Source of the DNA: Candidatus Gottesmanbacteria bacterium RIFCSPLOWO2_01_FULL_42_22
Lineage (GTDB): Bacteria > Patescibacteriota > Microgenomatia > 2-02-FULL-39-11
Assembly (NCBI GenBank): GCA_001779315.1
Contig: MFJU01000022.1
Span: 1 to 50,550 of the forward strand
DNA length: 50,550 bases
Reading direction: 5' to 3'
Positions 37,136 through 41,296 of the stretch are shown piece after piece. Position 1 is the first letter of the stretch. Every line of letters starts with the position of its first letter. The notes under the pieces were generated by a model that was given only the letters and a program-made list of their open reading frames with translations, was not told the origin of the DNA and did not search any database. Made by a program: the position numbers and the translations under genes.

Positions 37136-37516
37136 TTATGACAAAGGTTTCATGGTTTTGATATCCTTCATGGGGAAATGCTTAAGATTAAGGGAAACGA
37201 GAATGAGATTATTGACGTTGGCGCAACCTGCGATCAAACAATCAATCAGACTGAGATTTTTATATTGTTTACTGAATTGCTGAAAATACAGTCCTGCCTG
37301 TTTGGCAGCCAGCGGGGTTATATCCCAAGTCTGAAATTCATTTAAGATGTTTTCTGTTCTCATGAGTTCAGAGGGAAAAATGTTTTTATAAATTTCGGCA
37401 ATGGAAATAGTTGAGATGGAAAGAGGGTCTTTGTCTTTAAGTCTAAGTAATAAATCAGTATATTTCTTATTTCCCCGTAAGACCCAAATAAGGACATCAG
37501 TATCGATTAAATACAT
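37136..37516 (-). CDS. PIN-domain toxin (VapC)
   Basis: MYLIDTDVLIWVLRGNKKY; SLIDCLIAGCANVNNLILVSLNLKHFPM. Confidence 0.85.
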   Translation of the reverse strand: MYLIDTDVLIWVLRGNKKYTDLLLRLKDKDPLSISTISIAEIYKNIFPSELMRTENILNEFQTWDITPLAAKQAGLYFQQFSKQYKNLSLIDCLIAGCANVNNLILVSLNLKHFPMKDIKTMKPLS

Positions 37517-37518
37517 GA

Positions 37519-37797
37519 TTAGAAGGTTCTGTTGGCGGCTTTTCTTTCCTGTTCAACCCATTTAACAACATCTTTTTTTGTCCGCCATTCGGGATGATTT
37601 TTATCGGAGAATATTCCGCTGGCTGCCATTAATGCTTTTTCAAATGTCCCGGGATTGAATTTTTTCTTACCGGTGAGCATAGCTATCTGTTCGTCTTTCT
37701 TTTCATCCCTTAAGATGACGGTATATCCATCTTTGGCTTTGGCGATGTAATCTGCAATATTCTGACGAAACTGGCTGATAGACACGTTTATAGTCAT
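37519..37797 (-). CDS. Phd/YefM-like antitoxin
   Basis: MTINVSISQFRQNIADYIAKAKDGYTVILRDEKKDEQIAML; adjacent to PIN gene. Confidence 0.8.
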   Translation of the reverse strand: MTINVSISQFRQNIADYIAKAKDGYTVILRDEKKDEQIAMLTGKKKFNPGTFEKALMAASGIFSDKNHPEWRTKKDVVKWVEQERKAANRTF

Positions 37798-39107: not shown

Positions 39108-39584
39108 ATGCAGGATGAGGAATACGGTAAGATCAAAAATTACGCCCTGAAACTGCTGTCCATCCGTCCCAGATCGGTGGCGGAAATAAAAAAAAGACTG
39201 ACTTCTTATATAGCCAGGAAAAAATTCCCCGTCCAAATTTTAGACCGTCTAATTAAAGAATTGGCTGATTTAAATTTTCTGAATGATAAGGATTTTGCCC
39301 TTTGGTGGCTGGACCAGCGGGGGAGAGCTAATATCAAAGGAAAAACTTTTATTAGGGCGGAACTTCTGCAAAAGGGTATTGACCGGGAGGTGATTGCCGA
39401 AGTATTAACCGGTTTGGAACCGGAGCAGGAAATGGATAAAGCCCTTCAATTAACGGAAAAAAAATTCGCTTCAGTGAAAATCAGTCGGGATACGGAATTT
39501 AAAATAGGCCGCTATTTGACCGGGCGCGGTTTTTCTTACGATATCATCAAAAAAGTGATTGACTCTTTAAGGCAAAGAAGTTAA
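39108..39584 (+). CDS. recX: regulatory protein RecX
   Basis: ALKLLSIRPRSVAEIKKRL; LIKELADLNFLNDKDFALWWLDQRG; follows recA. Confidence 0.9.
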   Translation: MQDEEYGKIKNYALKLLSIRPRSVAEIKKRLTSYIARKKFPVQILDRLIKELADLNFLNDKDFALWWLDQRGRANIKGKTFIRAELLQKGIDREVIAEVLTGLEPEQEMDKALQLTEKKFASVKISRDTEFKIGRYLTGRGFSYDIIKKVIDSLRQRS

Positions 39585-39587
39585 AAT
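39559..39587 (+). promoter_or_regulatory. predicted promoter (TTGACT-N17-TAAAAT) at the end of recX
   Basis: TTGACT 39559-39564, TAAAAT 39582-39587. Confidence 0.7.
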
Positions 39588-39593
39588 AGAACC

Positions 39594-39727
39594 ATAATTT
39601 CGGGATTTTAAGGGAAATTAGAAAAGGTTAGATATGCATTTTCAGTTATATTTAGAAAAATACATATTTCCAGCCGCAATACGCGGATTTTCTTCCGCGG
39701 ATTCTTCAATTTCTTAAAAAATCCCGT
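39594..39727 (+). ncRNA. candidate structured RNA / 5' leader upstream of rny
   Basis: Closing stem CGGGATTTTAAG(39601-)/CTTAAAAAATCCCG(-39726), inner stem GAAATT/AATTTC, hairpins 39632-39667 and 39682-39699; promoter immediately upstream. Confidence 0.55.
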
Positions 39728-39772
39728 AAGCAACACTGTTATCAAGCCGTTATCCTAAGGAGGGTATATTTT

Positions 39773-41296
39773 ATGTTGTCAGTTCTAAAGACCATTTTAT
39801 CCAGATTAGAAAAGATCGAAAAACAGTTGGATACGGAAAAAGTTACTCCGCCGGTTGCAGAGGTTAAACAGCAGGTACAACCGCCCCAAAAAGCTGATCT
39901 GGGGCAGATACAGCAGGAAGCCAGGGCTATCCTGATTGAAGCCAAGGATGAAGCTTTCCGTCTTAAAAGAGAGGCTGAGGATAAAGCACAAAAGATACGA
40001 CAGGAAATCCTCTCGATTGAAAACAGGGTTTTAGCCAAGGAGGAATCAATTGATAAAAAAATCAGCCAGATGGAGGCTTTGGAGCGGGAATTAAAAAAGA
40101 AAGAGGATTCCATCGAAAGCCGGACTGGGGAAGCCGATAAATTAAGAAGCGATCTTATTAATAAACTGGAAAGTGTGGCCCATTTGACCCGGGATGAAGC
40201 CAAAAAGCTGATACTATCGGCTGTGGAGGAGAAATTGAAAGAGGAAATTGCCAAGAGGATCAGGGAAGCTGAATCGCAAGCCAAACAGGAAGCCGATACC
40301 AAAGTCAGGGAAATCCTGATTGATGCCATGAAGCATGGCGCTACCGATTATGTGCCTGAATATACTGTTTCCACCATCAAAATCAGCGATGAGGATTTCA
40401 AGGGCAGGATAATCGGCAAAGAGGGCAGGAATATCCGGGCATTTGAAATGGCCACCGGAGTTGATGTTGATCTGGATGAGGAAGGGGTTATCAGACTGTC
40501 TTCTTTTGATTCGGTCAGACGGGAAATTGCCAGAGTCACTCTGGAGAAGCTTTTAAAGGACGGACGTATCCAGCCGGTCAGGATAGAAGAGCTGGTCAGG
40601 CAGACAAAGCAGGAAGTGGAAAGGGTGATGTTTAAGGAAGGGGAAAAGCTCTGTCATACTGTGGGCGTCTACAATCTTCCCAGCGATAAAATTGCTCTAT
40701 TAGGCCGTTTTAAATACCGTTTTTCCTATGGCCAGAATATGATTGCCCATACTTTGGAGGAAACCAAAATCGGTATAGCTTTAGCCCATGAATTGGGAGC
40801 AGATGTCAACATTGTCCGTTTGGGTTGCCTGCTTCATGATATCGGCAAGGTTATCACAGACAAAGAAGGCAGCCACGTCCAGCTGGGTGTGGAGCTTCTC
40901 AAGAAAAACGGTATGCCGCAGGCGGTTATCGACTGTGTCGCCTCGCATCATGAAGATATCCCGTTTCCATCATTGGAAGCAGTTATTATTTATGTTGCTG
41001 ACGCCATATCAGGTTCCCGGCCCGGAGCCCGTTATGAGAATATCGATGAGTATGTTAAAAGATTGAAAACTTTAGAGGAAACAGCCACTGCTTTTCCCGG
41101 TATTGATAAAGCCTATGCATTGCAGGCGGGCAGGGAACTTCGGGTCATCATTGATCCGGGTAAACTGGATGATGCGGCAGTGACGGTAGTTACCAGAAAA
41201 ATCCGTGATGAAATTGAGAAAAAATTCCCGACCTTCCCGGGCCAGATAAAGATAACTTCCATCAGGGAACTGCGGGTGACGGAAACAGTACATTAG
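39773..41296 (+). CDS. rny: ribonuclease Y
   Basis: KH GRIIGKEGRNIRAFEMATGVDVDLDE; HD domain RLGCLLHDIGKV; AAGGAGGG upstream; no N-terminal TM segment. Confidence 0.95.
   Translation: MLSVLKTILSRLEKIEKQLDTEKVTPPVAEVKQQVQPPQKADLGQIQQEARAILIEAKDEAFRLKREAEDKAQKIRQEILSIENRVLAKEESIDKKISQMEALERELKKKEDSIESRTGEADKLRSDLINKLESVAHLTRDEAKKLILSAVEEKLKEEIAKRIREAESQAKQEADTKVREILIDAMKHGATDYVPEYTVSTIKISDEDFKGRIIGKEGRNIRAFEMATGVDVDLDEEGVIRLSSFDSVRREIARVTLEKLLKDGRIQPVRIEELVRQTKQEVERVMFKEGEKLCHTVGVYNLPSDKIALLGRFKYRFSYGQNMIAHTLEETKIGIALAHELGADVNIVRLGCLLHDIGKVITDKEGSHVQLGVELLKKNGMPQAVIDCVASHHEDIPFPSLEAVIIYVADAISGSRPGARYENIDEYVKRLKTLEETATAFPGIDKAYALQAGRELRVIIDPGKLDDAAVTVVTRKIRDEIEKKFPTFPGQIKITSIRELRVTETVH

Follow-up and report, generated by a model that had tools for sequence, protein, structure and literature searches.

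Introduction

In many bacteria, the decay of mRNA is initiated by RNase Y, and it is an open question how this decay is kept in step with translation. The leader RNA described here, which precedes the RNase Y gene (rny) in Microgenomates, bears on that question; this largely uncultured class keeps one cis-acting design, consisting of a promoter, a junction RNA and a short upstream open reading frame (uORF) whose stop lies in a hairpin, while nearly all of its letters have changed.

Like this leader, the rny 5' UTR of Bacillus subtilis is AU-rich and long (about 160 nt), and the lifetime of its mRNA has been proposed to be tied to ribosome occupancy; this 5' UTR is itself cut by RNase Y, and ribosomes occupying the mRNA hold the decay back. 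There, occupancy acts at the rny start, and the work describes neither a uORF nor a conserved junction RNA (PMC10303841). The 5' UTR of E. coli rne (Rfam RF00040) is likewise the structured leader of the gene for a main decay-initiating endonuclease, but enzyme family and RNA are different, with no Rfam match here, and rne regulation has been described as relying on binding to a stem-loop of the leader rather than on a uORF (PMC10303841). E. coli toiL, upstream of topAI, is also a short uORF in a structured leader and is proposed to report the translation state at multiple positions (PMC12121999); but whereas toiL acts by opening up the ribosome site that follows it, no switch of this kind is predicted for the present leader, in which the stop usually lies in a hairpin loop. 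Bicistronic leaders that work by termination-reinitiation share the short first cistron that has a Shine-Dalgarno sequence of its own and, in some lineages, the downstream gene without one; they differ from the present case in that the cistrons here do not overlap but are 23-121 nt apart with folded RNA between them, and that the rny Shine-Dalgarno is strong in many lineages. In the open-access literature, we found no papers on RNase Y in these bacteria or on this leader.

Results and discussion

The window, i.e. the whole stretch of 50,550 nt that was analysed, comes from a Candidatus Gottesmanbacteria (Microgenomates) contig that is part of a 1.42-Mb genome; among named relatives, Candidatus Gottesmanbacteria GWA2_43_14 is the closest (88% RNase Y identity). 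The gene order around the leader is recA, recX, rny, and the recX-rny gap measures 188 nt (recX ends at 39584, rny starts at 39773). The features of the locus are as follows.

39108-39584, + strand: recX, the upstream neighbour, with the promoter at its 3' end
39559-39587, + strand: promoter TTGACT-N17-TAAAAT, overlapping the recX end (-35 at 39559-39564, -10 at 39582-39587)
39601-39726, + strand: three-way-junction leader RNA; stem P1 pairs 39601-39609 and 39612-39623 with 39705-39715 and 39718-39726
39622-39627, + strand: uORF Shine-Dalgarno AAAAGG, 6 nt ahead of the ATG (predicted dG -3.8 kcal/mol)
39626-39675, + strand: hairpin P2 of the minimum free energy (MFE) structure, whose 5' strand includes the uORF start codon and part of the uORF Shine-Dalgarno
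39634-39717, + strand: uORF of 27 codons, MHFQLYLEKYIFPAAIRGFSSADSSIS (ATG at 39634, TAA at 39715-39717)
39674-39686, + strand: alternative hairpin CCGC-AATACGCGG, compared with leaders L003, L018-L020, L037 and L041
39682-39699, + strand: hairpin P3 of the MFE structure, CGCGGA-TTTTCT-TCCGCG
39757-39764, + strand: rny Shine-Dalgarno AAGGAGGG (predicted dG -12.5 kcal/mol)
39773-41296, + strand: rny, RNase Y of 507 aa without an N-terminal membrane segment (Pfam RNase_Y_N, KH_1 and HD; hydropathy)

For comparison, we collected the rny upstream regions of about 115 non-redundant Microgenomates genomes, 110 of them with an anchor-less RNase Y, and those of 40 genomes from other classes of the same phylum. 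Most of these genomes were assembled from metagenomes; we set the rny starts by rule, with seven adjusted by hand, and counts over these leaders are not independent because the leaders share ancestry.

Conservation and promoter

The leader is conserved across Microgenomates by layout, not by letters. A blastn search with the recX-rny gap found nothing in 96 other genomes, and we therefore relied on layout and statistics. Rfam cmscan of the window and 14 related loci returned tRNAs only, and a permissive scan of the gap gave one chance match; a known Rfam family was thus rejected for the leader, as no family scored above its gathering threshold there. The leader is single copy in its source genome, which rules out a mobile element or repeat. 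MAFFT alignments of the leader were usable for close relatives only, and a covariance model (R1) built from four close leaders gave only weak matches beyond its own seeds (E 0.1-10) and missed the leader of the window itself. Among these matches were the rny leaders L026, L037, L023, L073 and L006, and the best match genome-wide was the rny leader in both G021 and G045; L048, L053, L062 and one site in G001, by contrast, were not rny leaders. R1 is too weak for class-wide alignment.

The promoter that the first-pass annotation had read as TTGACT-N17-TAAAAT is present; matches of this type occur at chance level within the window (2 vs 2.4 expected), but the element is conserved in relatives. 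Searching from -290 to -110 relative to the rny start, with expectations from mononucleotide shuffles, we found TTGAC-N16-18-TANNNT in 55 of the 110 anchor-less class leaders vs 0.8 expected. The site is kept 170-250 nt upstream of rny, giving a long predicted 5' UTR as in the B. subtilis type; in the window, the transcript is predicted to start at about 39594. Since the same pattern also precedes rny in other classes (8/40 vs 0.5 expected), it is not unique to Microgenomates.

Fold of the leader

The stems proposed by the first-pass annotation, CGGGATTTTAAG / CTTAAAAAATCCCG (39601-39726, beginning 13 nt past the -10), GAAATT/AATTTC, the ATATGCATTTT arm and CGCGGA-TTTTCT-TCCGCG, lie where it had placed them, and RNAfold returns the three-way junction it had suspected as the MFE structure of the window leader (-42.7 kcal/mol, z = -3.1, equalled by 2 of 200 dinucleotide shuffles), with the second stem slightly displaced, pairing 39626-39636 with 39663-39675. 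In a separate 175-nt fold test, the window leader again scored z = -3.1, with a closing helix of 20 pairs. Over the class, the 175 nt upstream of rny fold more stably than shuffles, with a mean z of -1.61 (n=110); coding controls average -0.32 and the other classes -0.77. Two-branch junctions with a closing helix of 7 or more pairs were found in 46 of the 110 class leaders vs 23.2 expected, while the two control sets matched expectation (10 vs 8.8 and 7 vs 11.2). As for covariance, the leader layout is conserved across the class, but covariation is thin: four close leaders contain 2 double changes, and 28 of 500 shuffles were as good.

Together, these results bear out the earlier suggestion of a promoter-linked structured 5' leader of rny, which class-wide conservation supports, while its alternatives found no support. 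A riboswitch is not supported, given the lack of a conserved aptamer-like core, of blastn matches in the 96 other genomes and of any Rfam match, and neither is a separate small RNA, given the lack of a + strand terminator between the structure and rny.

A putatively translated uORF within the fold

The uORF was overlooked in the first-pass annotation because the gap was treated there as untranslated. Leader L003, from the same genus, also carries a 27-codon ORF at this position; it differs in 32 of 81 bases and shows no indel. For the class, we defined a uORF by rule (ATG, 11-30 codons, start at -170 to -65 and stop at -125 to -20 from rny) and took the expectation from dinucleotide shuffles. 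Such a uORF is present in 93 of the 110 class leaders vs 40.3 expected; the other classes are at chance (13/40 vs 15.0 expected; Fisher p = 2.7e-9 vs the class), as are further long gaps from these genomes (25/98 vs 36.5 expected), and the five class members with a membrane-anchored RNase Y have none. A Shine-Dalgarno signal accompanies the uORF starts class-wide (p = 5e-6), TAA makes up 76 of the 93 uORF stops vs 54% of all leader stop triplets (p = 5e-8), and in-frame cysteine is depleted (p = 0.01). Start, Shine-Dalgarno, open frame and stop are thus kept above chance, which on sequence comparison points to a uORF that is translated. The architecture of leader and uORF is well supported by these comparisons, which likewise support a joint enrichment of promoter, fold and uORF upstream of anchor-less rny across Microgenomates.

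The uORF peptides, on the other hand, diverge almost completely, and base changes between the window and L003 are not biased to third codon positions (9/12/11), so that the codon-position test for a conserved peptide was negative. No residue is strongly enriched over the 93 uORFs, and there is no run of diagnostic codons. It is unlikely that the peptide is the product that matters; given its divergence, what counts is probably the passage of ribosomes. Some close groups (L050/L055, L018/L019/L020/L041 and L053/L056/L069) do share peptide motifs, e.g. TT..SPT and MNQYF, and in these the peptide could be of local importance. Readthrough into rny was rejected, since the frames of uORF and rny are random relative to each other (30/32/31 over 93 leaders), as was bypassing into rny, since the residue before the stop varies and there is no shared take-off codon.

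The uORF begins on the 5' strand of P2, and the third hairpin tends to hold its stop in the loop. In the mean of 93 leaders, the unpaired probability is 0.24-0.32 just before the stop, rises to about 0.62 at the stop and falls back to 0.28-0.34 just after it, while control stop triplets are flat near 0.4; the second paired stretch, past the stop, is taken to be the 3' strand of P1. An earlier shuffle test counted 41 leaders vs 14.3 expected in which an ORF of 10 or more codons has its stop in a hairpin loop. As a strict local stop-in-hairpin test succeeded in only 43 of 110 leaders, we consider the averaged profile and the earlier shuffle test the better evidence.

The genus of the window is a variant of this design. 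The competing CCGC/GCGG pairing noticed in the first-pass annotation does exist in the sequence, and the genus keeps this hairpin (39674-39686) without a stop in its loop; the frame continues to the next stop, in P1, just past the third hairpin. In sequence and position, CCGC-AATACGCGG resembles the stop-holding third hairpin of other lineages and would be its equivalent; the competition of two hairpins in the window looks like a local variant.

Spacing between the uORF and rny

A very strong rny Shine-Dalgarno characterises the autoregulatory leader of the B. subtilis type. In the window and in most Gottesmanbacteria, this site is among the strongest of the set, while it is weak in 28 of 75 leaders. 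The distance from uORF stop to rny is 55 nt in the window and 23-121 nt across leaders, and leaders with a weak rny Shine-Dalgarno have the shorter spacing (43 vs 61 nt, p = 1.4e-4 with rule-based uORFs; p = 4e-6 with hand-picked ones). A trade-off in Shine-Dalgarno strength between uORF and rny was significant only with hand-picked uORFs (p = 0.009) and not by rule (p = 0.14); hand-picked uORFs were used in the comparison of Shine-Dalgarno dG and in the prediction of ribosome-site access, and rule-based ones in the 93/110 test. In a Woesebacteria-like group (L063-L066, L084, L095, L118, L120 and L121), rny has no Shine-Dalgarno and that of the uORF is strong. The predicted access of the rny ribosome site is unchanged by uORF occupancy (0.45 vs 0.46), and a switch that masks the rny Shine-Dalgarno, as in an erm-type translation attenuator, was rejected on this basis.

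Possible mechanisms

We give about an even chance to the reading that the feature is an rny leader which couples ribosome occupancy to decay and/or translation of the rny mRNA, as a variant of the RNase Y autoregulation of Bacillus. Of the autoregulatory leader proposed in the first-pass annotation, the leader part has thus found class-wide support, while autoregulation is made plausible by precedent, as B. subtilis RNase Y autoregulates via its own 5' UTR (PMC10303841). With the peptide unconserved, the frame random and access to the rny site unchanged, what is left is occupancy of the leader by ribosomes, and we infer, by analogy with B. subtilis, that the Microgenomates uORF extends ribosome occupancy into the leader. 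Transcription of the leader would begin at the promoter at the recX end and yield a three-way-junction RNA that surrounds a short, putatively translated uORF. A ribosome on the uORF would melt P2 and P3, park at the stop and shield the leader; without uORF ribosomes, the AU-rich leader would be exposed to RNase Y, and the lifetime of the rny mRNA would be set by ribosome occupancy of the uORF. The uORF probably also hands ribosomes to rny via termination-reinitiation where the rny Shine-Dalgarno is little or absent. The outcome would be a homeostatic control of RNase Y that senses both translation state and free RNase Y activity. More tentatively, we speculate that the class-wide uORF, with its stop in a hairpin loop, is a peptide-independent gauge of ribosome load. 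It would fix the level of RNase Y, so that global mRNA decay matches translation capacity, and would have arisen with the loss of the anchor. The leader suggests that Microgenomates tie the amount of RNase Y to ribosome performance.

It is possible, though on balance doubtful, that the uORF serves mainly as a ribosome entry site, with rny translated by termination-reinitiation, the fold tuning the coupling and mRNA decay not being the target. About a third of the uORF leaders have little rny Shine-Dalgarno, with the uORF stop closer to the rny ATG and, for hand-picked uORFs, a stronger uORF Shine-Dalgarno; the short distance makes termination-reinitiation fit in those lineages. In the window and most Gottesmanbacteria, however, with their strong rny Shine-Dalgarno and, in the window, the distance of 55 nt, reinitiation is not needed, and the strength of this site favours decay control in the window. 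A classical leader-peptide attenuator or stress-sensing uORF of the trp or toiL type, in which a stalled ribosome alters a terminator or the rny ribosome site, appears improbable to us. Such systems usually place a uORF among competing hairpins, toiL responds to translation stress at many positions (PMC12121999), and a U-run follows the third hairpin in some lineages (L020, L037); yet the window leader has no intrinsic terminator on the + strand, and both the absence of a strongly enriched uORF residue and the unchanged predicted access of the rny ribosome site speak against it.

Another possibility is that RNase Y itself binds or cuts the folded RNA, much as RNase E acts on the 5' UTR of rne, in which case the uORF would be no more than a tolerated by-product. 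Structured leaders of RNase genes are known, and the preferred substrates of RNase Y are AU-rich single strands next to structured RNA (PMC10303841); a by-product would not be expected to occur far above chance only in these leaders, with a Shine-Dalgarno signal and a TAA bias, and we see little likelihood in this explanation. Least probable, and in our opinion very much so, is that the short peptide itself is functional, e.g. as an amphipathic helix that replaces the lost membrane anchor. The anchor is indeed missing in 110 of 115 class members, and some peptides look amphipathic (L031, L071, L082, L088, L106), but the near-complete divergence and the lack of a third-position preference in close pairs, such as the window and L003, argue against this.

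RNase Y without a membrane anchor

By a simple hydropathy rule, the N-terminal membrane segment is absent from those 110 class RNase Y proteins vs 7 of 40 in other classes, with one borderline; in the RNase Y of the window, the match to Pfam RNase_Y_N begins only at profile position 48. The leader and the loss of the anchor are associated, an association that shared ancestry alone could explain. In B. subtilis, the anchor is important for global gene expression (PMC11313650), and with its loss here, the amount of the then cytoplasmic enzyme may have to be controlled more tightly. Many RNase Y proteins of the class (the window, L002-L130) begin with a short, possibly amphipathic stretch, such as MLSVLKTILSRLEKIEKQL, MFDVLKTLSGLVK or MSFFGNLSNLF.

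Elsewhere in the window, on the - strand at 37136-37797, two adjacent ORFs of 126 and 92 aa resemble, by their translations alone, a toxin-antitoxin pair of the VapBC type.
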